From Thauera carbonicopians (GTDB lineage: Bacteria > Pseudomonadota > Gammaproteobacteria > Burkholderiales > Rhodocyclaceae): DNA of 64,000 bases. The notes below the pieces were generated by a model. That model ran no database searches. It was not told the origin of the DNA and saw only the letters and a list, made by a program, of their open reading frames with translations. A program made the translations under genes and the position numbers. Below are positions 49,162-64,000 of this stretch, piece by piece. Location of the stretch: NCBI RefSeq assembly GCF_025699485.1, contig NZ_JANUXN010000010.1:62001-126000 (forward strand). The letters are read 5' to 3'. The first letter of the stretch is position 1. Every line of letters begins with the position of its first letter.

Positions 49162-49724
49162 TTATCGGAAAAGTCTCACTATTTCTTGAATGCAGACTGC
49201 GACCTGCTTCACGCTGTCACGGACATGTATCGCCGTGGCAGGCGCGCAGTGCGCCTTCACCTTGTTGCACAAGATCCGGAGGTTTCCGGCCTGGATTTCG
49301 GTGAGTAGGCGATTCTGGAAAATCGGACAGGATGTCCCGGTCGATGATGTGCTTGCACACGGCACCGGTGCTCTCGGCCCATCTCGTATGGGCGAGGCAG
49401 CTCTCCATCGCCGCGCCGAAAGTCTTGATGGCGCGAACCCGGCGCTTGTCGCGTTGTGCTTTTCCAGCGCGGGCGATATGCCCTGGAGAACGGTCTTGCG
49501 CGCCTCCAAGAGCAGTTCGCGCGCCATCGCCAGCGAAATGCCGCTCGGCCCGTAGCGGCCGATGGTCAGGGTTTCGCGGCGGCCGTTGAGACGGTAGTCG
49601 TAGCGGAAGGTGACGGTGCCGGCGGGTGATACCGCCAGGGACCAGGAGACCCGCTGATGCCCGGAAAGCCGCATGAAATAAGCTTTCCTGAGGAGGCTTT
49701 TACCGTCAAAGACGGCAAAAGCCT
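49162..49724 (-). pseudogene. decayed P4-type tyrosine integrase (N-terminal half)
   Basis: On the minus strand an N-terminal DUF4102-like piece reads TVTFRYDYRLNGRRETLTIG, then RYGPSGISLAMARELLLEAR. The frame then changes (about 49450) to KAQRDKRRVRAIKTFGAAME and AESTGAVCKHIIDRDILSDF, and changes back (about 49320) to FQNRLLTEIQAGNLRILCNK and ATAIHVRDSVKQ before a stop. These are successive parts of one P4-like integrase with two frameshifts. The catalytic C-terminal domain (R...HxxR...Y) is missing, so it cannot recombine DNA. It marks an old genomic-island end. Confidence 0.8.
49694..49724. repeat. inverted repeat AGGCTTTTaCCGTC / GACGGcAAAAGCCT
   Basis: Two 14-base arms with one mismatch, separated by AAA, lie at the start of the integrase remnant. 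It contains the first of the TTACCGTCAA repeats, so it may be an integrase or excisionase binding site rather than a terminator. Confidence 0.55.
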
Positions 49725-49981
49725 GAATAGTGAACGAGAGTGTCTTAATTCCGCCTCAATTCTTACCGTCAACCGTTTTTGCTGGCCGACGATAGCCGTC
49801 GATAAATGCCGCGACGCATTTAATTATAAATCAAAACGTTACGACAGCTTTCCGATAGCTGGCGATAGTCCCCGAAGGACCTAAATTCACTCCCACTCGA
49901 TCATCAACAGGCCCTGAAACCCGCATCGTTAAAGGGGTTGGCTCTGATCGAGTCGGCTTTTATCGTCACTTTTACCGTCAA
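49700..49981 (+). repeat. three copies of TTACCGTCAA (possible integrase arm sites)
   Basis: TTACCGTCAA occurs at 49700-49709, 49763-49772 and 49972-49981, all in one orientation, on both sides of the guaA-like end at 49887-49901. Short direct repeats flanking a core are the usual layout of integrase arm-type sites. Confidence 0.45.
49887..49901 (-). other. guaA-3'-end-like sequence (candidate attachment core)
   Basis: On the minus strand ATCGAGTGGGAGTGA encodes IEWE-stop, the conserved C-terminus of GMP synthetase. P4-type islands are known to insert at the 3' end of guaA with the integrase gene immediately downstream, and here the integrase remnant starts about 160 bp downstream in the same direction. 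Upstream residues (FQGLLM) do not continue as GuaA, so this is only the crossover-sized piece, consistent with a displaced att site. Confidence 0.4.
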
Positions 49982-50111
49982 AACAGCTCATCTTTTGCTG
50001 GTGCGGGAGATGGAGCGATTTGCGCGGCGTCGACACTTTCGGCCTTATCGTCGATCAGGATGCATCTTAGCGCGCTCGAACTTGCCCTGGAACGCCCTGC
50101 TCTTCGCCTGC

Positions 50112-51396
50112 TTACGGCGACATCCCACCGAGTGTTCTGGCCGCCTGCTCAAGCCCGCCCAGGATGGCATAGCGGACACGCGGTGAGAAGTCCTGTGGCA
50201 ATTCGGCTTGCACTTCGGCAATGGCCGCTGGTGTACGAGCAACAAGTTCTTCAACGATCGGCTCGGCGGTCGATGCGTAGCCAACTTTCTGCGCGGTGCT
50301 GTTGAAGTGCCTGCGCTGGATACCGTGCATCTCGTAGTGTCGATTCTTGCCGAGTAGGGCCATGGCCAACTTGATCTCATACGGAGACCACTGGTTGGGG
50401 CCATCGCCCAACACCGGGTAGACCGACATCACGTCATACAGCGGGGTCAGCTGGAAACGACCGCGTGGCAGAAGCTGGATGCTGAAGTTCTTGGCATGGC
50501 CATCGGGCGCGCGCAGCAACCAGAACAGCACCTGCGCCGCCATCAGCGTCTTCATGTCGGCCTCGGTATTCACCGATTGCCTCAGCGTGCCGAACAGGGC
50601 CTTGAGCCCAGGACCGCCCTCGTTCTCGTACTTGCGTAATGGCGAGCAGCTCTCGACCTGGCAAAAGTCCTCCTGTGGCAGACGCATGAGCCACTGCCTA
50701 TTGGGTGCGACGCGCCGGTCGAAACGCACCACCACCACCAGCACACGCTGTCGGCCGAAGGTCACGATGCGGGCATCAGCCACGGGCAATCCGTAGGCTT
50801 TCAGCAGCCGCAAGCATAGCCATTCGTTGTCGACGGACGTGCTGAAGTCCGCCCGCCGCCCGCCCATCAGACCGAGCGGAAGCTTGAAGATGTGGCTCGT
50901 CGGCGTGGCGCCACGCGGCGCCAGCCATTGCTCGCCCCACCACAGGAAGGCCGTCTTCTCCTGTGCACCGGCCAGTGAGATGCGAAAGTCAGCATCCGGG
51001 TTTCGACCCGCAGCGAAGGCCTGCGGCGAAACGGTCTCGACCAGGTGCCGCTCGATATCCTCTTCAGATAGGGGCACGCCCTCGATGCGATCGAAGTCCG
51101 TGGGCACCTCCTCCTCATCCAGGATCTGGACGGCGCCCACGCAATCGCGCTCGATGGCCTTCAGCAAGTCGAACGGCTCGGTCGAACTAGTTGGCGACCT
51201 TCTAGCCCTTGACAGGCAGGTTCTGCAGATTGAACGGCAGCGACAAGGACAGCGGCCGGCCAAGGAACTGCAGTGCGACACGGATTGGCTTGCTGCCGAG
51301 CCCATTTCTGTACCCAGCTGCTGCAACTGCAACAGCTTGAGTTTGGGTGAAATGACGAGAGATCCGCGGTTCCCTTATCTCTGGCGTACGGCGCAC
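50112..51396 (-). pseudogene. hipA: decayed HipA-type serine/threonine kinase toxin
   Basis: The C-terminal 340 residues (to 50112) are a clear HipA kinase: STEPFDLLKAIERDCVGAVQ, SLAGAQEKTAFLWW (ATP loop), APDGHAKNFSIQLL (catalytic loop) and LTPLYDVMS (metal-binding Asp). The N-terminal HipA_1 region is broken. In another phase it reads ALQFLGRPLSLSLPFNLQNL, PVKG, then an amber codon, KVAN, a second amber codon and FD, and rejoins at STEPFD. The usual VANYFDNLLPDS...F stretch of about 30 residues is deleted. No hipB antitoxin gene is visible upstream. HipA phosphorylates glutamyl-tRNA synthetase and causes dormancy; this copy is probably inactive. Confidence 0.75.
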
Positions 51397-51536
51397 CTAA
51401 TCAACTTGAGCCGCCTCGCAACGCGAGGAGCTTGTGCTCGCATCTAAAAGTCCCTAAAGTCTGCGCAGCGAAGTTCACTTCTCGCCACCCGGATACTGGC
51501 GCTGCGTTCAACTTTAACCTAAAGGAGACAGGCCTC

Positions 51537-52265
51537 ATGGAAATTCGAGTTCAGCGCACGATTGGCGTGCTTCCGCAGCACGCTCGCAGTTTTATCCAGC
51601 TAGCACTGCAGACCGCAGAGCGCTCGCAGAAGGTGATGGGAATCGCGTCCGACGTCTTCTACAACGCGCACGCGAACGACGAGGCTATGGAGTTCGTGGT
51701 CTTTACTGACTTCGAGAGCATGGCCGTCTACGAGAAGCGCTTCCTTGGTGATCTGCTGCACGACATGGACTATCTAAAGCTCGCCGCTGGCGCTGTGGAA
51801 ATGATCCGCGACGAGCCGCTCGACGAGATGTTCGTGCGACTGCAGCCGGACGACTATTTCATGAACCTCGGTACGACTAAGCGTCGGAAGTTCACCTTCG
51901 AAAAAACTAAGCCTGCAAAGGCGTCGAAGCCATCGCGGTTTCGCCGCGAGCGGGAGTACTGCGCTGCCAAGGGGCAGCTACGCAACGTGATGCAGATGAA
52001 CTTTGACTTCATGGACAAGTACTTCCGCGGCACCGGCAGTATCCCCAAGTTCTTCTGCACACGCTTCTCAGCAAAGCGCATCGGCTCTACAAAGTTGTAC
52101 TTCGATGCTGACGAGTGTCCGCAATGCACGCCCGCTTTCATCGAACAGGATGAAGACATCGCGGTAAATCGTAGCGGGCTGCTCCTGCGCGCGCCTATCG
52201 ACCGCCTCTTTACCCGCGTTGATGCCTCGATGGCAGGCTTTTCGCTTGCTAAGCTTGCCGAGTGA
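51537..52265 (+). CDS. unknown 242-aa protein opening the PKS/NRPS cluster (NIPSNAP/ABM-like N-terminus)
   Basis: I do not recognise this protein with confidence. AAGGAG precedes the ATG at 51537, and the stop overlaps the PKS GTG start as GTGA, so it is tightly coupled to the cluster. The first 95 residues look like a dimeric alpha/beta-barrel (NIPSNAP/ABM) domain: GIASDVFYNAHANDEAMEFV, then FTDFESMAVYEKRFLGDLLH. A basic linker (TKRRKFTFEKTKPAKASKPS) leads to a second half containing MNFDFMDKYFRGTGSIPKFF and DADECPQCTPAF with a CPxC pair. ABM-like proteins act as small-molecule oxygenases, cyclases or heme-binding proteins, so a tailoring role on the assembly-line product is possible but unproven. 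Confidence 0.8.
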   Translation: MEIRVQRTIGVLPQHARSFIQLALQTAERSQKVMGIASDVFYNAHANDEAMEFVVFTDFESMAVYEKRFLGDLLHDMDYLKLAAGAVEMIRDEPLDEMFVRLQPDDYFMNLGTTKRRKFTFEKTKPAKASKPSRFRREREYCAAKGQLRNVMQMNFDFMDKYFRGTGSIPKFFCTRFSAKRIGSTKLYFDADECPQCTPAFIEQDEDIAVNRSGLLLRAPIDRLFTRVDASMAGFSLAKLAE

Positions 52266-54748
52266 CGAGGTCAGCACGGCCCGACCTAGGGCAACGGTTG
52301 TCGGATGTCGCAATCGTCGGAATCGACTGCCGCGCTGCTGGGGTGCCTAATCGCCATCAGTTCTGGCGAGGCTTGGTCGATGGCAGCGTTCGCACTGGAC
52401 CATGGCCGCGCTCGCGCTGGCTGCTTTCTGATCTGTGGTCCTCTTCGTGGGTAGACGGTAAACCACCACCGCGCGTTCTTCGCGCCATGCACGGCGCCTA
52501 CCTTGACGGGGTAGACGCGTTCGATGCCGCGCTGTTTGGCATCTCAGCGCGAGAGGCCGCCGCGATGGATCCGCAGCACCGGCTCATCCTTGAGGCGTGC
52601 TGGATAGCATTGCAAGACGCTGCGATTGATCCACGCCGACTCGCCCGTTCTGCGATCGGTGTCTTTGTCGCTCTCTCGTCGATGGACTATGCATTGCTGG
52701 GTCACGAAGCTGGTGCACGAGTCGGTGCCTACTCGGCGTTAGGTGCCACCAAGAGTCTGGCTGCGAACCGTGTTTCACATGCGCTTGGTCTCGTCGGGCC
52801 TAGCATGACCATCGACTCGGCATGTTCTTCGGGCCTGGTCGCGCTGCACTTGGCGCGCCGCGCGCTCGGGACGGGCGAGTGCGAGTTGGCCATCGTCGCT
52901 GGCGCTAACCTTGTGCTAGCGCCGACCGTGAACGCCGCCTTCGACCGCGCCGGCATGCTGTCTTCGCGCGGGATGTGCACGCCTTTTCGTGTGGGCGCCG
53001 ATGGCTACCTGCGCGGTGAGGGCGTGGCCGCGCTGGTTCTCAAACGCTACGCTGACGCGATCGACGATGCAGACCCAGTGCATGCGGTCGTGATTGGCTC
53101 GGCCGTCAATCAGGACGGACGTACTCCCGGAATTACGGTGCCCGCAACCGAGGCGCAGGTGGCCGTTGTGCGCGCCGCTTGGGAAGACGCCCGGGTTAGC
53201 TCCGACGACATCGACATCCACGAGGCGCATGGCACGGGCACGCCAGTTGGCGACAGAGCAGAAATCGATGCACTAGCCACGCTCTTCAAGGACCGCAACA
53301 AGCAGACACCCTGCTTCGTCGGTTCGCTGAAGGCCAACTTCGGTCACACCGAGGCGGCCGCCGGCCTCTTTGGCGTGATTAAAGTTTCCAGCGCTCTCGC
53401 CAAAGGTATCTCACCACCGCATGCTGGAGAAGGTGAGCTAACGAAGTGGCCCGCGGATGTCCACGGCCGATTGCATTGGCCAGAGTTGACCGAGTCACTG
53501 TCCTCGCAACCAACACCTTGGCATGGCAGCGTTAGTGCGTTTGGATTCGGTGGCACCAACGCGCATGTTGTGTTGCGCGCTGCGCCACCGGCGCGCCAGG
53601 CGGTGGCGCGGCGGCTCGCCCTCCCGCTTTCGGCCCACAGCACGACCGCCTTATGCAAGCTGGCCGACGCCTGGGCCGAGGCATTTGAAAGTTCCGATCC
53701 GTTGCGCGCGACGGCACTTGCCCTCAGCGCGCGCCGGGCCTACGCCGGTGAGCGCACGCGCATGTATGTCGAAGCGGTCGATGGGAGAGACGCGACGCAC
53801 AAGCTGCGCCTGGCAGCAGCCGAGCACGATATGAGCGAGGTAGGCGCGGTGAGGCGGGGCGTGCTCCTTCTCGGTGCACCCGAGACCGAGCAGGGGATGT
53901 GCGCAGCGGCGGGCACGAACGGAGGCAGTGGAATCGCTGCTCAGTTGCACTTGCTGTCAAAGCTCCAAGCGGTGTTGCCAGATTGGCCAGTCCATTCGCT
54001 AGGGGCCCATCCACTCGCACTCGCACTCTGGCGCGGACAGATCGATCTCGCAAGTGCTCTCGAGCGGCTTAGAGAGCCAGATGTCGAACCACGTAGCACG
54101 GACAAAGATGTCGATCTTCGTTCGCTGGTCGAGTCTCCGATTCTGACTATCGGCACGATCCCTCAGGATGCGAATCCTGACTGCAGACTGTTTGTGCTTA
54201 GGCCGGGCGATGACCCAACCTCAATCCTTGGCGCTTTGTGGAAGGATGGGGTCGACGTGCGCCTGGATGCCTGGGCCCCGCCCGCCGTCTCCGCGGCCAG
54301 TGGCGCGCCGCCCTATGCATTCGAACCGGGTCGCCACTGGCATGCGGTAGGAACGAGCAACGAGATCAAACTGGAGACTTCGGCGCCAGCGGATCTGCCT
54401 GAGACGGTCCCGCTCGAGCTCGGCGAACTCTCGTATGTTTCGCAGCACCGCATCGATGGCGAGACTGTTGTTCCAGGGGCGGTACTGCTCGACCTTGCGC
54501 TGGCCGCCGCGACTCAGAGGCACCCACTTGCGACTGGCATATGGAGCGCACACGACGTGTGCTTTGAAGCGCCACTATTCATTCATGGTGCGGCGTCATC
54601 TACCCGGTTGGAACTGCGGCCAGTTGCTGGAGAAGATGGCGTTTGGGCGTTTGTAGTCCTGCAGTCCACCCGCCACTCGACACGGCGTATTGCCAGTGGG
54701 CGACTGAAACGGGAACACCATCAGGGGGGTGCATGCGCTTCAGCCTGA
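52262..54748 (+). CDS. polyketide synthase: KS, truncated AT, N-terminal half of DH
   Basis: An 828-aa protein starting with GTG inside the previous stop. KS is residues 15-440: DSACSSG with Cys188, EAHGTGTPVGD with His323, KANFGHTEAAAG with His362, and GFGGTNAHVVL at the end; fully active by motif. Residues 450-690 have the KS-AT linker and the post-AT linker (ILGALWKDGVDVRLDAWAPP), but between them only about 60 residues recall an AT (LPDWPVHSLGAHPLALALWR with an HSLG in place of GHSxGE). The acyltransferase is therefore reduced and probably dead. Residues 715-815 are the N-terminal hotdog of a dehydratase, with HRIDGETVVP (His729) as the HxxxGxxxxP motif. The protein then stops just after the first hotdog. 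The second hotdog is in the next gene, behind a monooxygenase domain. Confidence 0.93.
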   Translation: MTRSARPDLGQRLSDVAIVGIDCRAAGVPNRHQFWRGLVDGSVRTGPWPRSRWLLSDLWSSSWVDGKPPPRVLRAMHGAYLDGVDAFDAALFGISAREAAAMDPQHRLILEACWIALQDAAIDPRRLARSAIGVFVALSSMDYALLGHEAGARVGAYSALGATKSLAANRVSHALGLVGPSMTIDSACSSGLVALHLARRALGTGECELAIVAGANLVLAPTVNAAFDRAGMLSSRGMCTPFRVGADGYLRGEGVAALVLKRYADAIDDADPVHAVVIGSAVNQDGRTPGITVPATEAQVAVVRAAWEDARVSSDDIDIHEAHGTGTPVGDRAEIDALATLFKDRNKQTPCFVGSLKANFGHTEAAAGLFGVIKVSSALAKGISPPHAGEGELTKWPADVHGRLHWPELTESLSSQPTPWHGSVSAFGFGGTNAHVVLRAAPPARQAVARRLALPLSAHSTTALCKLADAWAEAFESSDPLRATALALSARRAYAGERTRMYVEAVDGRDATHKLRLAAAEHDMSEVGAVRRGVLLLGAPETEQGMCAAAGTNGGSGIAAQLHLLSKLQAVLPDWPVHSLGAHPLALALWRGQIDLASALERLREPDVEPRSTDKDVDLRSLVESPILTIGTIPQDANPDCRLFVLRPGDDPTSILGALWKDGVDVRLDAWAPPAVSAASGAPPYAFEPGRHWHAVGTSNEIKLETSAPADLPETVPLELGELSYVSQHRIDGETVVPGAVLLDLALAAATQRHPLATGIWSAHDVCFEAPLFIHGAASSTRLELRPVAGEDGVWAFVVLQSTRHSTRRIASGRLKREHHQGGACASA
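54724..54729 (+). other. six-G run at the junction of the two PKS frames
   Basis: The KS-gene frame reads CAG GGG GGT and stops 17 bases later. Reading one base back (or with a seventh G) gives CAG GGG GGG TGC ATG and continues straight into the monooxygenase frame. The same G-rich strip is a ribosome-binding site for the ATG at 54733. Confidence 0.6.
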
Positions 54749-57700
54749 TGTACTTTTCGAGCGGCGAGCGAGAAGGGGCTGCGGCCACCTACACAAGGTT
54801 GCTCGATTTCGCCCGCCGCGCTGATTCCTCAGGCTGGACCCGCGTGTGGTTACCCGAACGACATTTTACCGACTTCGGCGCCGTTCATCCCAATCCCGCG
54901 GTGCTTGGTGCGGCGGTAGCGACACAGACTCAGAGGTTACGCATCGCCGCTGGAAGCGTCGTTGCACCGCTACACGACCCACTTCGCATTGCCGAAGAAT
55001 GGGCGATCGTCGATAACCTGAGCAAAGGCCGCGTGGACTTGTCGCTAGCGGCTGGCTGGCGCGCCGAAGACTTCGTACTCGCGCCCGCATCCTACGCGGA
55101 ACGAGCAAGTGTGCTCGCCAAGAGCGCGGACGAAATTCGCCGGCTCTGGCGCGGCGAGTCGCTAGCGCGCCCAGATGGCAAGGGCGCTACTCGCTGCGTG
55201 CGGACGCGCCCGAGACCCTACCAGCCAGACCTTCCGCTATGGGTCACCGCCGCACGTAGTGGAACCAGTTTCGAGATGGCCGGTAGCTTGGGCGCTAGCC
55301 TTCTGACATATCTTGTTGATCTGGGCTTCGACGGCCTCACGAAGCGCATAGCCGACTACCGCAGTGCGCGACAGCTTGCAGGGTTCACCGGGCCCGGATG
55401 GGTGACCGTGATGTTGCACAGCTTTGTCGGTGCCAGAAGCGGCGACGTACGAACTGCGATCGCACCTTCCTACATTGACTACTTGGTTGCCAACCGCGAG
55501 TTGCTAGGGGCGTCCGGAACGCTGACTGCCGGAGATGCGGCAGACCTTGCACAGGCTCAGTTCGAGCGAGTGTTCGAACGGCTCTCGCTCATCGGTGGGA
55601 GATCAGCGTGCGTCCAGGTAGTTAACCGGTTGCGCGAACTGGGGGTGGACGAGATCGCCTGTCTTGTGGACTTCCCGGCTGATTTGAGTCTAGTTGATGA
55701 CGCATTGCCAAGGCTCTTTGAGCTCGCGGACGATTGCGCGGGGCCGAATGTTGTCTGGAGCAGGATCGAGCCGCCACCATTAGTTCGCGTCGATGGGGAT
55801 GCCTTCTACACCTACATTGAGCAACGAGGCGCTGTGTATGGGCCTGTGTTTCGATGGTTGCAAAGCGCCGAAGCAAACGAGCGTAAGGCTCGCTGCGAAC
55901 TCGTTGTTCCGGCGGATATGCCTGCGAGCGCAGAACGAGCCTTGCTGATCGACGCGGCAGTATCCTGTGCCCATGCGATCGGAATGACTCCAGGTTTGCG
56001 AGCGAGTGCGCACCCGCTAGGTCTTCCCGTGGGTATCGACTCCCTGCGCGCGCTTTCGCCAGTGCAGCAAGGCGCGCGGCTGTACGTCGAGATTGAGCTG
56101 GTAGAACTCACCGAGAGCAATGCGCGATTCGACGTCGATGTGCGCGATAGTGGCAAAGCGTTGGTTCTCGAGTTGCGGGGATTGCGCATGAGCAGACCGC
56201 CGCCGCTTGTCCATAGCGCTGCCAACACCATGCCGATGGGCTTGCTTCGAAGCCCCGCCTGGCAGACGACGAGTCCTCAGCCTTCTTTGAGTGCTGCCTC
56301 GAGTACAAGGACCGGTGAAGTGTTGGGTTTTGACGGCGACTTTGCACGCGCCCTTGCCCATGAACGCGACCCAAAGACGACTACATGGCTTTGGTGCACT
56401 CCCGACGCGGCATCGGCAGACAGAGAGTCGCTCGAGGCCGACATTCAGACCTGGGTCCCGCGGATGGTTGCCGATGTCGCCCGCTGGCGCGCCACCACCG
56501 GGACGGGGCCGATGGTGGTGCTACTGCGTGGTTCTCGCCGAGTCGATCGCACTGATGCCTTGCCAAGTCCTTTATCGTCCGCGCTTTGGGCTGCAGCCTG
56601 TTCGCTGTTGGCAGTGTCGGGACAGGGGTCAGCCCTCTGGGTGCTTGATGTCGAGACCAAGGCGTTGGCCGCGGATGCCGCTGCTTGTGCACAGATCCTT
56701 GCCGATTCGGAAGGTGGTGGGGCCTTGGCTTGGCGAAACGGACTATGGTTGCGACCCACTCTCGAGCCGATGTCGGTGGAACCAAAGGCGCAAGCAAGAA
56801 GCTCGCGCGCGCTCATCACTGGTGGCAGCGGCGGTCTGGCCCGCCCTCTCGCCGCCTGGCTTGCCGCAGAGGGAGTGCGAGACCTGCGTTTAGTGTCGCG
56901 TCATCCCGAACGCGCTGCATGGTGGGCTGACGCACTGGCGAGTCTGCCTGGCTCCCCTCGTATCGAACGCGTTGCAGCCGACCTCGCTGAAGCGGAGGAC
57001 ACTAGGCACGCGCTACAAGGCGATGAACCGTGGGATGCAGTGTTTCATCTCGCGGGCGATGTAGTCGACCCGCGCGGCGACAAGGGTGATGCCGACGCCG
57101 TGGCGCGCTGCCTGCGACCCAAACTAAGTGCGCTGCGCCGCATGCGTGCTGCGTGGGGCGATGCGCCACCTAGCCGACTCGTGGTGTTCGCAAGCATCGC
57201 TGGGCTCGCAGGCTCGGCCGGCCAGGTCGCCTACGCTGCGGCCAATGCGGCCATGGCTGCCAGCGCCACGATTGACGTCGCAGCGAACGGCACGGCGGTC
57301 ACGGTTATCTGGTGGGGGCCATGGGCCGACGTGGGAATGGCCGCGCTTCCGGAGCTTGTACCGTTGCTGGCAGCAAAGGGTGTCGCGCCGATTCCACCGT
57401 GGGAGGCACTAGCCGCGATGCGGCTCGCGCTTGATTCCAGGCTCAACGAGGTGGTCATCGCGCGCGAGTCGTTGGTGACATCGGCTGCGCGGTCGACATC
57501 ACACGTCGGCATGATGGAATGGGATGGCCAGCTCGACGCGGCTAGCCTGCACGCATTGCTGCGCGACAAGGTGCTGCAGCTGCTTGCCCGCATTTTGGAA
57601 GTCGACCCTGGCAGCATCGACCCCCAAAGGAATCTCTACGAACTCGGCTTCGATTCGCTTATGGCAATCGAGCTAAAGGGTGAAGTACGTACGCTGCACG

Positions 57701-57816
57701 GCATCGATTTGAACCTCGCCACGATGCTCGACGCCAGCAGCTTGAACGACATCGTCGATGCGATAGTGCCAGTGCTCGCCGGCAAGGAGACCGAGCCGGG
57801 CACACTTAGGCTCTGA
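54733..57816 (+). CDS. LLM monooxygenase - C-terminal DH half - KR - ACP polyketide synthase
   Basis: A 1027-aa protein. Residues 1-335 are a luciferase-like flavin monooxygenase of the type embedded in natural-product synthases (MRFSLMYFSSGEREGAAATY; VWLPERHFTDFGAVHPNPAV; LRIAAGSVVAPLHDPLRIAE; RVDLSLAAGWRAEDFVLAP). Residues 340-490 are the second hotdog of a DH/PS domain (FYTYIEQRGAVYGPVFRWLQ; LIDAAVSC with Asp407; GLPVGIDSLRAL). Residues 530-910 are a KR with NADPH loop TGGSGGLARPLA and Ser821, Tyr834, Asn838. Residues 940-1012 are an ACP with LGFDSLMAIEL (Ser975). The LLM thus sits between two halves of one dehydratase. The start ATG overlaps the previous stop by 16 bp and has AGGGGGG upstream. 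Such LLM domains are thought to add oxygen to the ACP-bound chain (hydroxylation or Baeyer-Villiger type). Confidence 0.92.
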   Translation: MRFSLMYFSSGEREGAAATYTRLLDFARRADSSGWTRVWLPERHFTDFGAVHPNPAVLGAAVATQTQRLRIAAGSVVAPLHDPLRIAEEWAIVDNLSKGRVDLSLAAGWRAEDFVLAPASYAERASVLAKSADEIRRLWRGESLARPDGKGATRCVRTRPRPYQPDLPLWVTAARSGTSFEMAGSLGASLLTYLVDLGFDGLTKRIADYRSARQLAGFTGPGWVTVMLHSFVGARSGDVRTAIAPSYIDYLVANRELLGASGTLTAGDAADLAQAQFERVFERLSLIGGRSACVQVVNRLRELGVDEIACLVDFPADLSLVDDALPRLFELADDCAGPNVVWSRIEPPPLVRVDGDAFYTYIEQRGAVYGPVFRWLQSAEANERKARCELVVPADMPASAERALLIDAAVSCAHAIGMTPGLRASAHPLGLPVGIDSLRALSPVQQGARLYVEIELVELTESNARFDVDVRDSGKALVLELRGLRMSRPPPLVHSAANTMPMGLLRSPAWQTTSPQPSLSAASSTRTGEVLGFDGDFARALAHERDPKTTTWLWCTPDAASADRESLEADIQTWVPRMVADVARWRATTGTGPMVVLLRGSRRVDRTDALPSPLSSALWAAACSLLAVSGQGSALWVLDVETKALAADAAACAQILADSEGGGALAWRNGLWLRPTLEPMSVEPKAQARSSRALITGGSGGLARPLAAWLAAEGVRDLRLVSRHPERAAWWADALASLPGSPRIERVAADLAEAEDTRHALQGDEPWDAVFHLAGDVVDPRGDKGDADAVARCLRPKLSALRRMRAAWGDAPPSRLVVFASIAGLAGSAGQVAYAAANAAMAASATIDVAANGTAVTVIWWGPWADVGMAALPELVPLLAAKGVAPIPPWEALAAMRLALDSRLNEVVIARESLVTSAARSTSHVGMMEWDGQLDAASLHALLRDKVLQLLARILEVDPGSIDPQRNLYELGFDSLMAIELKGEVRTLHGIDLNLATMLDASSLNDIVDAIVPVLAGKETEPGTLRL

Positions 57817-57825
57817 GCAGATATC

Positions 57826-60800
57826 ATGGACTTCGCGCAGACCAAACAGGAACTCGCGCGTCACGGCATAGGCCTGACAATTGAAGACGGCGAGTTGGTA
57901 CTGCGCGGCCGCATCGCCGAACTGCCGCCCTCTCTCCTGAACGCGCTGCGCGAGGCCAAGCCAAGGTTGCTGGCCTCCGCCAATGCTGACGGAGCACCGC
58001 CATGGCAGGCAGCTTCAAACGGCCAAGCACGTCTCGCCTACCTTGATCTACTTCAGCCGCAAAGTGCGGCATATATTGTCGCAGCAGCCCTCGTTCTGCG
58101 TGGCGAGGTCGAACTCGAACCGCTTCGCCGAGCCTGGCAAACCGTGATCGAACGCCGTGCGATGCTGCGCGCCGTACTTGCTTGGAACGACGGTCAGCCT
58201 GGGGTGCGCTTTGTCAGCGAGGCAATGCCACTGGCCGAGCCGCTCGATCTGCGCAGAATCACGCCGACTGAAGCCATAAACCGCTTGGCGGCAGTACGTC
58301 AAGATATCGCCACTCGCGGCTTCGATCTCGAGGCTGCACCACCCTGGCGCGCGCTGCTTGTGCTGCGGAGCGAGGAGACCCTCGAGCTCATGCTAGCAGC
58401 CCACCACTTCATCGCTGACGGTTGGTCGATCGCACATGCGTTGCGCGAACTGGCGCGACTATATCGGCTTGAGTGCGAGAACGCAGGAGCCGCTGCTGCC
58501 GCAAAGCTTGCCCCGGCTCGACCCTACTCCGACTTTGCCGCCTGGCAGCGCGACGCTGTCTCGAGCTCAACCGGAATGGCGGCCTTGAGCGAATGGGGCG
58601 ATCAGCTGCGAGGGCTCCATGGCGCACTGCGTTTACGTGGCGCGCGACCATATCCGCCCAACCGAACCGACCGAGGCGCGCGTATTGCATTCAGCCTTGA
58701 GGCCAAGCAAACGGCGCGCCTGCGCGCCTTTGCTGCGTCCCGAAGAGTCACTGTGGCGCTTCTCTTGGCGGCCGTGCACGGAGTGCTACTTGCGCGGCAA
58801 TCTGGCGCGACTCGCTTTGCGCTGGGCATAGCAGTATCGCAGCGACCCGATCCGCTTGATACTGAAGCATTTGGTTTCTATGTGAACTGGCTGCCCGTCG
58901 TGGTGGACCTGACCGGCATCGCCAGCTTCACCGAATTCTTGCCAAGGTTTGCTGCACTTCGGCGAGAAGCGCTAGCGGCGCAGGACATTCCCTTCGATGC
59001 GATCGTGCGTGCTAGCGGAGCCCCTACTCGTCTAGACCACCATCCGATCTTTCAGCATATGGTCGTCTCGCACGTGCCGGCACGCCGGGTTGACTTCGGG
59101 CCGGCGGCGCATGCGAGTATCAGTCCCCTCGATACCCGCACAAGCAAGCTTGACCTAACACTGTTCGTTACTGACTGCCGCGAGGCGCTCCCGATCGCCG
59201 GCGAAGGCGAGATCTACCTCGAGTTCGAGTACAGCCTAGACGTCTTTGATGCTTCGGTGATCGAGGCGTTGACCGGCGAATGGCGCAAAACGCTTACGCG
59301 ACTGCTCGACGATCCCGACGCACCGCTTTTCGAGCAAAGCCGTGTTGAATCTCGGGCACACCAGCCGCCGCAAGACATCTGCCGAATGCTCGACGTGAGC
59401 GCTCGTCGTCACGCCACGGCAACGGCTATTGTTGCGCGTACCCGAGAAGTAACCTATGCCGCCCTATGGCGCGGTGCCCAAGCGTGCGCGGAGATGCTGG
59501 CGCGCGAGGGCGTGACGAGTGGCTCGCGCGTGGCCCTGCTGTGCCGCCGCGTGCCGGAACTGCTCTCAGCCTACATCGGCATCTTGCGTATCGGCGCTGT
59601 CGTGGTCCCGCTCGACATTGGGCTTCCGAAGCTGCGCATCCGCGAGCAGCTTGAGGATTCCGAGCCTGCGCTAGTACTTGGTCGCGGCGACGATCTCGCC
59701 GCGTTGTGCCCCGAGTGTGAGTTCCAGCGCCAGCCCTGGCCAGAATTGCAGGACGGGGAGGCGATGCCTCCCACCGTAGCCGCGCAGGCCACAACGGACG
59801 GTGCCTATCTGCTCTACACATCAGGATCTAGCGGCCGACCCAAAGGCATTCTCGGCTCGCGACGCGCGCTCGGCAATTTTGTTGCCTGGCTCAATCAGGA
59901 GTTGGTGGCAGGACCCGGTCAGCGCGTGCTGGCGCGCGCGCCATTTGGCTTCGACGCCTCCCTGCGCGAGACCGTCGCGCCGCTGGCCGCCGGCGCCACT
60001 ATCGTGCTTTCGGACGACGAGGAGGCATCGGACCCCGAGGCGCTGCTCGCACTTATGCACGATTTTGGGGTTACAACGCTGCACGCCACGCCAAGCGTTC
60101 ACGCCCTCTTTCTCGAAGCGCTCGCGTGTGCGCCCGCGCCGGCTACGTTGCACACGGTGATGTGTGGAGGCGAGTCGCTCAAGCCAACGCTCGCGCGCCT
60201 GCACTGCGAACGGCTACCCCATGTCGCCCTATACAACGTATACGGGCCGACCGAGTGCACCGTTGATGTGAGCGCAATACGCGTGGATGAGTGGCTTCGC
60301 GAACGCGACTCTGCGGGGCTCACCACGGACGCGCTACCTATAGGCCAGCCGATTTCTGGTGCAGTTGTCTATGTTGCCGATGAGCGAGGAGTACCTGTGT
60401 CCGACGGCGCACAGGGCGAGATCGTAATCGGGGGCTGCGCGCTTTCCCTCGGCTACTGGCGGGAAGGTCGCGCCACCGGATTTCCCGTCGCCTCGGACGG
60501 ACCGTACAGGGGCACTTTCCTGTATCGCACGGGTGACCAAGGTCGGCGCGATCCGGACGGGTTGCTCTGGTGTGATGGTCGCGCTGACCGGCAGCTCAAG
60601 ATCCTTGGTGCACGGGTCGAGCCCGCAGAACTGGAGCGAGTGCTTTGCGCTCAGGCAGGCGTGGCAGACGCGGCCGTCATCGCGAGTACGCAACCCTCAG
60701 GTATTCCACGCATGTTGGCATTCGTCGCCGTTGCTGATGCAGCAGCGTTCGACGAGTCGGCTTTGCGCGAGTCCATCGCTGCCACGCTGCCACGCTACCT

Positions 60801-61218
60801 CTGGCCAGCAGGCCTTTTTCGGGTCTCGTCGTTTCCGCGCTTGCCCAACGGCAAGCGCGACGATTCAGCGCTCCTGAGGCTGGCGACTATCCCTGCGGAA
60901 GAGTGCTCGGCGCCAGCCGCGTCACTGACTTCCGCCGAACAAGAGGTTGCGGCGCTGATGGGCGAGTTGCTTGGCCGGACTATCGATGATGCGGCGACCA
61001 ACTTCTTTCACGCGGGGGGGCACTCGCTCGATGCAGCCCGGCTGCTGGCGCGTCTGCGGCAGCGCCTTGGGGTGACTCTGCGCCTGCGCGAGCTTGTCTC
61101 CGATGCCAGCGTCACCGGGATCGCCGCCCGGGTCGAAGAGCAGCGCCGACGACTCGAGCCTGAGCCTTCAGTGCCGCCGCTGGTTCCCAGTCGACGCCCC
61201 CGCGCCTCGCATGACTGA
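57826..61218 (+). CDS. NRPS module: TubC docking - C - A - T
   Basis: A 1130-aa synthetase, 9 bp after the PKS stop. Residues 1-50 (MDFAQTKQELARHGIGLTIE) are a TubC-type N-terminal docking domain, which pairs with the C-terminus of the upstream synthase. The C domain (about 65-500) has HHFIADGW (His193, His194, Asp198). The A domain (about 520-1030) has YLLYTSGSSGRPKG, FGFDASLRET, NVYGPTECTVDVS, YRTGDQGRRDPDG and LPNGKRDD with its Lys. The T domain has FFHAGGHSLDAARLL (Ser1067). Reading the pocket by eye gives approximately D-A-R-A-M-G-V-V-D. The amino acid is not assigned; the DA-x-x-x-GVVD pattern recalls Glu-type codes but Arg at the third position is atypical. No termination domain is present, so the chain passes on. 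Confidence 0.95.
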   Translation: MDFAQTKQELARHGIGLTIEDGELVLRGRIAELPPSLLNALREAKPRLLASANADGAPPWQAASNGQARLAYLDLLQPQSAAYIVAAALVLRGEVELEPLRRAWQTVIERRAMLRAVLAWNDGQPGVRFVSEAMPLAEPLDLRRITPTEAINRLAAVRQDIATRGFDLEAAPPWRALLVLRSEETLELMLAAHHFIADGWSIAHALRELARLYRLECENAGAAAAAKLAPARPYSDFAAWQRDAVSSSTGMAALSEWGDQLRGLHGALRLRGARPYPPNRTDRGARIAFSLEAKQTARLRAFAASRRVTVALLLAAVHGVLLARQSGATRFALGIAVSQRPDPLDTEAFGFYVNWLPVVVDLTGIASFTEFLPRFAALRREALAAQDIPFDAIVRASGAPTRLDHHPIFQHMVVSHVPARRVDFGPAAHASISPLDTRTSKLDLTLFVTDCREALPIAGEGEIYLEFEYSLDVFDASVIEALTGEWRKTLTRLLDDPDAPLFEQSRVESRAHQPPQDICRMLDVSARRHATATAIVARTREVTYAALWRGAQACAEMLAREGVTSGSRVALLCRRVPELLSAYIGILRIGAVVVPLDIGLPKLRIREQLEDSEPALVLGRGDDLAALCPECEFQRQPWPELQDGEAMPPTVAAQATTDGAYLLYTSGSSGRPKGILGSRRALGNFVAWLNQELVAGPGQRVLARAPFGFDASLRETVAPLAAGATIVLSDDEEASDPEALLALMHDFGVTTLHATPSVHALFLEALACAPAPATLHTVMCGGESLKPTLARLHCERLPHVALYNVYGPTECTVDVSAIRVDEWLRERDSAGLTTDALPIGQPISGAVVYVADERGVPVSDGAQGEIVIGGCALSLGYWREGRATGFPVASDGPYRGTFLYRTGDQGRRDPDGLLWCDGRADRQLKILGARVEPAELERVLCAQAGVADAAVIASTQPSGIPRMLAFVAVADAAAFDESALRESIAATLPRYLWPAGLFRVSSFPRLPNGKRDDSALLRLATIPAEECSAPAASLTSAEQEVAALMGELLGRTIDDAATNFFHAGGHSLDAARLLARLRQRLGVTLRLRELVSDASVTGIAARVEEQRRRLEPEPSVPPLVPSRRPRASHD

Positions 61219-64000
61219 AGCCGATCTCACCCAGGTGGGCACAGAACCCCTCGGCGAAGACGGGAGCTACCGCTTCGCGCTGTCGCGCGAGCAGGCCCGG
61301 CTGTGGTTCTTGGCCGAGCAAGAGCCAGGCGCCATCTGTTACCACATGGCTTACGCACTGGAGTTCCACGGCGCACTCGATGTTCTGCGCGTACGCGAGG
61401 CATTTGATGCGCTGGCGCGGCGCCATGAATTGCTGCGTGCGCATGTTGTCGTCGAGGGAGGTACTCCTCGTTGGGTGGTCAGACCCGCGCCCTTCCACGC
61501 TCTGGAACTGATTGCTCTCGATGCGCTCGCTGACCAGGAGAGAAGCATAGACGAGGGGGCGACTCTGCGCGCAGCCGAGGACCTAGGGTGCGAGTTCGTC
61601 GCCCACCCGTTCGATCTTGCCGCGGCGGCGCCGCTATGGCGACTGCGCCTAATTCGTATAGCAAACGGCAGGCACCGTCTCGTTATGGTGATGCATCACC
61701 TAATTGGCGACGGCTGGTCCCACTCTGTGCTGGTTCGGGACTGGTGCGCGGCCTACACCGGCCGGCCCGATGCGCTAGCACGACTTCGAGTGCAGTTTGC
61801 GGAACATGTACTCGCACAGCAGCAAGCACTCGAACGCGATGGCGCACGCGACCGACTTATCGCTTGGTCGGCCGGACTGGAACAGTACCCGCCTCTTCGC
61901 CTGCCGCACGATCCAACGCCGCGATCGAGACGAGGCTTGCCCGAAGGTGCTCGGCTTCGCTTTTCAACCACGGAGGAAACTAGGAATCGCATGCGCGCGA
62001 TGCTCGAACGCGGCCCGCACTTGCTCTCTGCTCTCCTGCTCGCCCCCTTCGAAGCATTGCTCGCGCGCTATGCCGGCCAGAACCGCTATACGCTTGCCCT
62101 AGCTATTGCAAACCGGGGTCACGAGGAACTGGACGGTGTGGTCGGCTTCTTCGTCAACACCTTGGCGCTGCCTGCCGAACTAGCCGATGAACCCGACTTC
62201 GAAACCCTTGTTGGCCGAGTAGGAGCAAGCCTAGTTTCCGCCCACGCCTACGCCGATCTACCGCTAGATGAGGTACTTGCCCGACTACGCGAGAGCGCTG
62301 ATGTCACCTGGCGCGAGCCCACGCCTCTGCGCGCTCTATTTGTTTTGCAGAACTCTCCGCCCGCGCGCTTCGATTTGCCGGGGCTTGAGGTCGAGGTCGG
62401 GCGACTCCCAACCGCCACATCGAAGTTCCCCCTGACACTCTTCGCAATACCTAGCGACGGTCAGCCAATGCAGGCCGAGTTTGAGGTCGAGTATGACCCG
62501 CGATGGATCTCTCCCGCGAGCGCTGTTGTACTGCGTGACGCTTACCTTGAACTGCTCGATCTCTGCTGCCGCACGCCGGCGGCGTCGGCGCTGCGGGCGC
62601 CTTTGCGCGCCCATCCCAGCCGGCTGCGAGGCGCCGTCCAGCCGGCGCGCTACGCCCAAACAGTAATTGATCGCATCGCCGTTCGCGCCGCCCAGCTACC
62701 CGATGCGATGGCGCTGCGCTGGAACGGCGGCGAGCTGACTTACGCTGCGCTGGCGGGAGCAGTCGAGGACTATGCCGACGTTCTCGACGCCGCAGGGGTT
62801 GGGCACGGCGACCAAGTTGCGCTCGCCCTGCGTCGTGGCCCGCAAACGATCGTCGCCATGCTCGCGCTGTTAGCTGTTGGAGCGGCTTACGTCCCGCTCG
62901 AACCCGAGTGGCCCGTTGCGCGGCTGCACGTCCTGCTTGCCAACTTGGCGCCACGGGGACTGATCGATGACGGTGCGATCCCTGATTCGACGGTTGCGCG
63001 CCTGCCGGTACCCAGGGTCAAGCACACGCCGAGATCACCCCTTGGCTCTGCGGATCGCCTCTTGGATCGTTTGCGAAGCGCCGGCCCTCAGCCAGCGGAC
63101 GCTTGCTATGCCATCCATACGTCCGGCAGTAGCGGAGTGCCTAAGGCGGTTTTGGTCGAGCACGCGGGACTCGCTAACGTCTGCGACTGGATTGTCGAAA
63201 CCCTGGCCCTCACTGCTGGTGATCATGGCCTGCTGAAGACGCCACTCACATTCGATGCCGCGGCGCGCGAGCTGTACCCACCGCTGCTGGCCGGTGCGAC
63301 TTTGGTGCTCGCTGATCCAGACAGTCACCGCGACATGGCTTTGCTGGGCGAGCAGCTTGCACGCCATCAGATTTCAGCGCTGCACTGCGTGCCTTCGCAG
63401 CTCGCCGCATTGTTGGAGCAGCCTCTGGCCCTGCCGGCCCTTCGAGGCGTCATGTGTGGAGGGGAGCGCCTCCCCGCAGCACTCGCTGCGCGTTGGCTGG
63501 CGCGGACCGGTGGTACTGGCGGTCTCTGGAACGTCTACGGCCCGACTGAGGCCACCGTCGATGTGAGCGCACATCGCGTGTCGCTTGAGGACTTGGCGGA
63601 CCCAGGCTCGAGTGTGACGATCGGCGAGCCGCTGCCAAATATTGATCTACGTGTGGTGGACGGTGATGGCCAACCCGTATTTCGCGGTGCCATCGGCGAG
63701 CTTGAAATTGCAGGAATAGGTGTTGCCCGCGGGTACCTAGGTGCGCCGGATGACCGCCGCTTCAGCAGCGATCCCACTGCTCCTGGTGCGCTACGTCGCT
63801 ACCGCACTGGAGACTTGGTCCGCCTTCTCCACAACGGCAAGATCGCGTTCCTCGGCCGCACCGACGGCCAGGGCAAGCGGCTGGGCGTGCGCATCGAGGC
63901 TACAGGCTTGGAAGCGCTGCTGCTGCGTCAACCGGGAATCGGTGCCGCGCATGTTAGGTGGCTGGCCGCCGAGGTGTCTGACGGAGCGGAAGTGAGAGCT
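61211..64000 (+). CDS. NRPS module: C - A... (3' end outside window)
   Basis: The ATG at 61211 overlaps the previous stop by 8 bp, and the frame stays open for 930 codons to the window edge, so the protein is partial. The C domain (about 20-450) begins YRFALSREQARLWFLAEQEP and has MHHLIGDGW (His162, His163, Asp167) and VGFFVNTLALP. The A domain (from about 480) has YAIHTSGSSGVPKAVLVEHA, LTFDAAARELYPPLL, LWNVYGPTEATVDVS and, near the edge, FLGRTDGQGKRLGVRIEATG. The pocket read by eye is about D-A-R-C-M-G-V-V-D, differing from the preceding module at one position, so both may load the same or closely related amino acid. A T domain and later modules presumably follow beyond 64000. Confidence 0.93.
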   Translation, partial: MTEADLTQVGTEPLGEDGSYRFALSREQARLWFLAEQEPGAICYHMAYALEFHGALDVLRVREAFDALARRHELLRAHVVVEGGTPRWVVRPAPFHALELIALDALADQERSIDEGATLRAAEDLGCEFVAHPFDLAAAAPLWRLRLIRIANGRHRLVMVMHHLIGDGWSHSVLVRDWCAAYTGRPDALARLRVQFAEHVLAQQQALERDGARDRLIAWSAGLEQYPPLRLPHDPTPRSRRGLPEGARLRFSTTEETRNRMRAMLERGPHLLSALLLAPFEALLARYAGQNRYTLALAIANRGHEELDGVVGFFVNTLALPAELADEPDFETLVGRVGASLVSAHAYADLPLDEVLARLRESADVTWREPTPLRALFVLQNSPPARFDLPGLEVEVGRLPTATSKFPLTLFAIPSDGQPMQAEFEVEYDPRWISPASAVVLRDAYLELLDLCCRTPAASALRAPLRAHPSRLRGAVQPARYAQTVIDRIAVRAAQLPDAMALRWNGGELTYAALAGAVEDYADVLDAAGVGHGDQVALALRRGPQTIVAMLALLAVGAAYVPLEPEWPVARLHVLLANLAPRGLIDDGAIPDSTVARLPVPRVKHTPRSPLGSADRLLDRLRSAGPQPADACYAIHTSGSSGVPKAVLVEHAGLANVCDWIVETLALTAGDHGLLKTPLTFDAAARELYPPLLAGATLVLADPDSHRDMALLGEQLARHQISALHCVPSQLAALLEQPLALPALRGVMCGGERLPAALAARWLARTGGTGGLWNVYGPTEATVDVSAHRVSLEDLADPGSSVTIGEPLPNIDLRVVDGDGQPVFRGAIGELEIAGIGVARGYLGAPDDRRFSSDPTAPGALRRYRTGDLVRLLHNGKIAFLGRTDGQGKRLGVRIEATGLEALLLRQPGIGAAHVRWLAAEVSDGAEVRA

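Follow-up and report, generated by a model that had tools for sequence, protein, structure and literature searches.

A polyketide synthase module of Thauera carbonicopians split within its dehydratase by a luciferase-like monooxygenase: a recurrent arrangement most likely associated with alpha-hydroxylation

Introduction

In mupirocin biosynthesis, the oxygenase MupA acts on a beta-keto substrate carried by acyl carrier protein (ACP) and not on the beta-hydroxy form, according to the portions of that work cited here (PMC10952193), and the puwainaphycin oxygenase PuwE has been linked to a 2-hydroxy fatty acid in the cited part of its description (PMC4219810). A third described system, the synthase of cyanochelin B, shares its architecture with the subject of this study, a polyketide synthase (PKS) module of Thauera carbonicopians in which the dehydratase (DH) is divided over two proteins and a luciferase-like monooxygenase (LLM) stands between its two halves. 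The module lies in a stretch of 64,000 nucleotides (NCBI RefSeq assembly GCF_025699485.1, contig NZ_JANUXN010000010.1, positions 62,001 to 126,000 of the forward strand), here called the window, and coordinates are those of this stretch unless a locus is named.

NMR showed that cyanochelin B carries a CH-OH group at its beta carbon, whereas its alpha carbon is quaternary and bears oxygen and CH3, i.e., C(OH)(CH3); as described in the cited sections, no oxygen is inserted and no ring is present between the alpha and beta carbons (PMC12628792). The figure legend of that study names the domains Ox, cMT and KR without mention of a DH, and the word 'dehydratase' is absent from its main text. Ketoreduction is assigned to CcsC (BAU16015) in section 5, but a passage of the methods places the ketoreductase (KR) in ccsAB, a discrepancy that stands (PMC12628792, in part). 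The gene pair of Leptolyngbya sp. NIES-3755 that encodes BAU16016 and BAU16015 (CcsC) is located within the cyanochelin B cluster, as far as the same sections describe it (PMC12628792). We infer that BAU16016 is the ccsAB product.

The arrangement described below is real and recurrent, and it is undescribed in the literature searched; the chemistry is otherwise known.

Results

A dehydratase cut between its two hotdogs

Protein 1 of the module begins with a ketosynthase (KS) and ends after the N-terminal hotdog of a DH (DHn), and protein 2 opens with an LLM and only then supplies the C-terminal hotdog (DHc), followed by KR and ACP. This order had been proposed in a first-pass annotation made from the sequence alone, and the profile searches bear it out: PF21089 (PKS_DH_N) matches protein 1 with 36.7 bits (cut-off 27, profile positions 23-100 of 103), and protein 2 is matched by TIGR04020 with 360.6 bits (cut-off 244.45, positions 1-340 of 341) and by PF14765 (PS-DH) with 58.6 bits (cut-off 23.7). 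The PF14765 match lies in the region, residues 340-490, in which the second hotdog had been expected, with YGPVF at residue 369 and the Asp at 407. The two open reading frames (ORFs) overlap by 16 nt and are in different frames. The features of the module are as follows.

52262..54748, + strand: PKS protein 1, 828 aa, with KS, a post-acyltransferase (AT)-like linker (by eye) and DHn hotdog (ORF and Pfam)
52304..53425, + strand: KS, aa 15-388 (N and C parts), with ACSSG at 187, HGTGT at 323 and NFGH at 359 (Pfam and sequence motifs)
54416..54658, + strand: DHn hotdog core, aa 719-799, with the catalytic-type His codon at 54446 (PF21089; DHn profile aligned to CurK 7-132)
54723..54729, + strand: AGGGGGG, Shine-Dalgarno-like, ahead of the ATG of the LLM gene (sequence)
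54733..57816, + strand: PKS protein 2, LLM-DHc-KR-ACP, 1027 aa (ORF, TIGR04020 and Pfam)
54739..55725, + strand: luciferase-like FMN-dependent monooxygenase domain, aa 3-331 (TIGR04020 above cut-off)
55756..56196, + strand: DHc hotdog, aa 342-488, with the Asp codon at 55951 (PF14765; phmmer to MAS and CurK DH)
56809..57330, + strand: KR, aa 693-866, with the Ser, Tyr and Asn motif region (SIAG...YAAAN) by eye (PF08659)
57565..57765, + strand: ACP, aa 945-1011, with GFDSL (PF00550)

No second hotdog was found in protein 1 by Pfam at E values up to 1, in agreement with the first reading of the KS protein. Pfam also reported no AT domain in protein 1 or protein 2 and no methyltransferase (MT) domain in the window module. 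A trans-acting AT within the cluster was considered and rejected, the two AT-family matches of the genome being on contigs C22 and C46 and not on C1.

The point of division was located on CurK (3kg9). When the DHn ends of four loci are combined in a profile, it matches CurK residues 7-132, and the DHc part of an LLM+DHc profile of four rows (profile A1: the window, L011, L004 and L035) matches residues 139-289; since DHn ends at CurK 132 and DHc starts at CurK 139, the LLM replaces the short inter-hotdog linker, the very position that had been claimed for it. Both hotdogs of a DH are present, spread over two proteins, and where a usual DH has a single chain with a short linker, an LLM of about 330 aa and a division into two ORFs intervene. 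In nine control DHs (eight selected regions and L037), both halves are in a single ORF with no LLM between them (9/9); they nearly abut in L037, L077, L078, L079 and L083, and are 39 to 61 residues apart in L080, L081, L082 and L084, where the matches are weaker. The closest solved structure to the LLM+DHc profile is that of PuwE (6ket, E 1.2e-147).

Recurrence and distribution

The LLM+DHc loci found number ten: the window and nine others, namely Burkholderia arboris (L011), Cylindrospermum NIES-4074 (L004), Leptolyngbya NIES-3755 (L035), three genomes from the phylum of L004 (cyanobacteria; L054, L055 and L056) and three from the phylum of Corallococcus (myxobacteria; L063, L064 and L065, the last ending at its contig edge). 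In all ten, a PF21089 match above cut-off lies at the end of the upstream protein, and LLM-DHc stands at the start of the following one, with PF00296 and PF14765 likewise above their cut-offs. The window fits this split LLM-in-DH pattern of the cyanochelin type, in which DHn closes one protein and LLM-DHc-(MT)-KR-ACP begins the protein after it. As L035/L054 and L064/L065 are near-identical pairs, there are about eight distinct cases. The two genes of a pair overlap by as much as 16 nt (4 nt in another case) or are separated by up to 116 nt (the gaps in L064 and L065, 20 and 24 nt, were counted from ORF starts), and this variation favours two translated proteins. The first-pass annotation had left a choice between a DH shared by two polypeptides and one frameshifted chain; the former stands, and frameshift or assembly error is rejected on account of the separate ORFs in 10/10 loci together with their varied spacing.

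In a tree of LLM domains, the ten from split modules fall on one side of a branch and 23 others on the other side (93/97; recovered in 91% of 200 bootstrap trees, support that falls short of the star threshold of the tool), the 23 being loci already at hand, nine of them from plasmid matches, and not a systematic sample.

Homologue searches showed that the split LLM-in-DH recurs yet is rare in the genomes and plasmid records searched. With profile A1, the only match within the genus was the source genome itself (1 of 29 genomes at E 1e-100), and the same held for its phylum (1/398) and order (1/399) at E 1e-140. Four of 386 genomes matched at E 1e-150 in the phylum of G199, the source of L004 among them, and five of 146 at E 1e-145 in the phylum of G200, three of which reach DHc; in the phylum of G204 there was no match at E 1e-145 (0/149), an empty answer that carries no weight. 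These thresholds were chosen to exclude LLM-only matches, scoring outside the genus search took in at most the best 3 to 9 candidates of each genome, and some genomes were shared between searches; with strict thresholds and few candidates scored, weak cases may be missed. Of 1039 plasmid records matched by the LLM+DHc query from B. arboris, two reach a query coverage of 80% or more, and one of these is the B. arboris record. The rare and patchy distribution suggests horizontal transfer of the split module.

The architecture had been put forward as one not known from described assembly lines. The cut is in fact present in the synthase of a published product, cyanochelin B, but among the matches listed in literature searches none describes a DH that is divided by an oxygenase.

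State of the dehydratase active site

The window DH has the motif HxxxGxxxxP at residues 729-738 (His729), where it had first been placed. In place of DxxxQ/H it has DAAVS, with Asp407 kept and Ser at +4. The catalytic His is kept in six of ten split DHs versus nine of nine controls in the motif comparison, and it is replaced by Tyr, Asn, Ser and Ala in L004, L056, L064 and L065. The Asp is kept in nine of ten (Glu in L004) and in 10/10 control C-halves. Five of the nine controls are themselves without Q/H and carry Gly at that place, so the stricter motif test says little.

PhyH-DHn fusions in myxobacterial loci

The DHn of L064 and L065 is joined not to a KS but to a PhyH-type 2-oxoglutarate (2OG) dioxygenase, directly upstream of LLM-DHc. 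A DHn that sits on a KS in one case and on a dioxygenase in another, with the same set of partners, resembles a docking handle, and of the observations made this fusion argues most strongly that the DH has a structural role. The cassettes, PhyH-DHn followed by LLM-DHc-KR-ACP (KR and ACP seen in L064), span L064:3585-8752 and L065:7326-10541; the contigs that carry them measure 19 and 26 kb, and the neighbouring genes seem, by eye, unrelated to PKSs.

The window cluster has a separate PhyH protein with 44% identity over 386 residues to the dioxygenase part of L064. This PhyH-family 2OG oxygenase is encoded on the same contig beyond the window (L033:16030-17277); it gave a match below cut-off to a chlorinating-enzyme model, and its iron motif is, by eye, HxE (hydroxylase-like).

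Surrounding genes

The module is followed by two nonribosomal peptide synthetases (NRPSs) with condensation (C), adenylation (A) and peptidyl carrier protein (PCP) domains.

57826..61218, + strand: NRPS C-A-PCP, the next protein of the assembly line (Pfam)
61211..64000, + strand: second NRPS, extending beyond the window, with C, A, MT and PCP domains, two of each, in a presumed order (Pfam)

The C-terminal region of the second NRPS is a tail without Pfam match. The first two NRPS adenylation domains (57826-64000) have the same binding-pocket letters by eye, at what we take to be the relevant positions, a hint that the same amino acid is used twice. Past the window end on the same contig, after the NRPSs, are TauD, PhyH and PPTase genes. 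Compared with the records of the plasmid collection, the 16S rRNA comes closest to betaproteobacteria (91.3% to Niveibacterium microcysteis). Directly ahead of the KS gene is an ORF (51432-52265) without Pfam or NCBIfam match, and at the left border of the cluster (49162-51332) are a short ORF and a HipA-like ORF (matches below cut-off), suggestive of an island. The short ORF, to which NCBIfam gave no match, presumably resembles an N-terminal piece of an integrase.

Discussion

How the module may work

By analogy with the described oxygenases, the window LLM is most likely an alpha-hydroxylase of beta-ketoacyl-ACP of the MupA/PuwE type, and the DH in split modules most likely serves as a non-dehydrating scaffold and docking interface. 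We consider it reasonably probable that all of these features go together, i.e., that the module is split inside the DH, that the LLM alpha-hydroxylates, and that the hotdogs close across the chains around a DH that no longer dehydrates; the architecture, its recurrence, the family memberships and, from the literature, the product of one relative are established, and what we infer is alpha-hydroxylation and non-dehydration in this cluster as well as closure across two chains. The subunits KS-DHn and LLM-DHc-KR-ACP would be translated separately and joined via their hotdog halves into one double-hotdog, the LLM barrel taking the place of the short linker. The KS would condense malonate onto the ACP, with an AT acting in trans, the LLM would then hydroxylate the alpha-carbon of the beta-ketoacyl-ACP using FMNH2 supplied by a reductase elsewhere, the KR would reduce the beta-ketone after alpha-hydroxylation, and the alpha,beta-dihydroxyacyl chain would be handed undehydrated to the NRPS. 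The structure of cyanochelin B, the substrate preference of MupA and the 2-hydroxy link of PuwE together point to this order of condensation, alpha-hydroxylation, ketoreduction and hand-over, and the window's own product may contain an alpha-hydroxylated, undehydrated unit.

More tentatively, with slightly less than even confidence, we suggest that the retired DH halves are a docking device that places the inserted oxygenase at the ACP, with a movable N-half (on a KS in eight loci, on a 2OG dioxygenase in the two near-identical ones), and that assembly lines would thus have a class of docking other than the coiled-coil, four-helix and DH-docking motifs.

Several observations weigh against the proposal of a non-dehydrating scaffold. 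The window keeps both His729 and Asp407, so DH activity is possible, and both residues are likewise kept in L011, L035, L054, L055 and L063 (6/10 in all). The His contrast (4/10 lost versus 0/9) is small, with a one-sided p of 0.054 among related rows, and the joint presence of HxxxGxxxxP and DxxxQ/H (0/10 split DHs) is a weak test, only 3/9 controls having both. In cyanochelin B the alpha carbon is quaternary, so the absence of dehydration there is no proof of an inactive DH. In a tree of DH halves, the split DHs do not form one group (0% of 200 bootstrap trees), although a single group is not rejected (p-AU 0.228). The dioxygenase fusion is known from one near-identical pair and therefore counts as a single event. 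Finally, the window copy is divergent: its DH branch has a length of 2.99, its LLM is a long branch (1.3) adjoining L064/L065, and its DHn is without the first ~22 profile positions (the HPLLG part). With long branches, a truncated DHn and no AT, this copy could be decaying.

Alternative explanations

The same residues allow the shared DH to be active here, eliminating the beta-hydroxyl after alpha-hydroxylation and ketoreduction to give an enol and then an alpha-ketoacyl chain. The window retains HxxxGxxxxP, YGP and the Asp unaltered, but DxxxS stands for DxxxQ/H (a weak objection, given the controls), the beginning of DHn is missing, four of the ten loci have lost the His, and the sole known product retains its beta-hydroxyl (PMC12628792, in the cited sections). 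We regard an active DH as unlikely. Unlikely, too, is that the DH halves are mere leftovers of an LLM gene that landed in a DH, with neither pairing nor docking: the long DH branches and the loss of catalytic residues in some loci would agree with this, but both halves score above the Pfam cut-offs in all ten loci, and a DHn persists even on a dioxygenase lacking a KS; decay alone would not preserve them.

That a single DH was broken by frameshift or misassembly in a dying cluster is very improbable. An out-of-frame overlap, no AT, a truncated DHn and a match in just one genome of the genus, its own, are what such an accident might leave, yet the break point is identical in 10/10 loci with varied spacing, KS, KR and ACP have their motifs, and the reading frames of the NRPSs are uninterrupted. 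The first-pass annotation was right to tie an oxygenation step to the module, but its proposal of an LLM that puts oxygen into the chain (Baeyer-Villiger) in combination with dehydration, or that forms an oxa-ring (pyran) with the DH, is hardly credible, as cyanochelin B, with its alpha-hydroxyl and retained beta-hydroxyl, lends support to none of these and has no such feature between these carbons (PMC12628792), alpha-hydroxylation is the reaction linked to both MupA and the puwainaphycin oxygenase (PMC10952193, PMC4219810; all three in the parts cited), and the following protein is an NRPS.

Significance and comparison with known systems

If correct, the proposal of a hydroxylating module built on a non-dehydrating DH would reveal a place in a PKS module that can accommodate an alpha-hydroxylase, and would provide engineers with a naturally occurring split site and an interface for pairing. 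It would also give a rule for genome mining, that LLM-DHc after a DHn-ending protein predicts a 2,3-dihydroxyacyl unit and not an alkene; annotating a DH at such a split would suggest the wrong product.

Each half of the window DH aligns to one hotdog of the CurK/CurF dehydratases (3kg9, 3kg6), which we take to be ordinary DHs with a single chain holding both hotdogs. An LLM placed within another domain is seen in Nostoc sp. C052 (L037:9703-15153), by eye within an NRPS adenylation domain, but there in a single polypeptide and in a host domain that differs from that of the window; MtaG and MelG are reportedly published cases that resemble an LLM inside an adenylation domain. Unlike the window LLM, PuwE sits with an aminotransferase between PKS and NRPS modules of one protein. 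MupA gives its name to the LLM family model (MupA/Atu3671), and in mupirocin as in the module proposed here alpha-hydroxylation precedes ketoreduction (PMC10952193, cited part), but MupA acts in trans at a KS0 junction, whereas the window LLM is built into a DH and followed by an NRPS C-A-PCP, with no non-elongating KS0 after the hydroxylating module as in a MupA-type bimodule. The synthase of cyanochelin B comes closest: its order is KS...DHn // LLM-DHc...KR-ACP // NRPS, it is cut at the same point, and its LLM belongs to the same tree group; it differs in its FAAL-type loading, cis AT and C-methyltransferase, and its product is a siderophore. Set beside these systems, the Thauera module is plausibly a variant of in-module alpha-hydroxylation with a putative new mode of docking.
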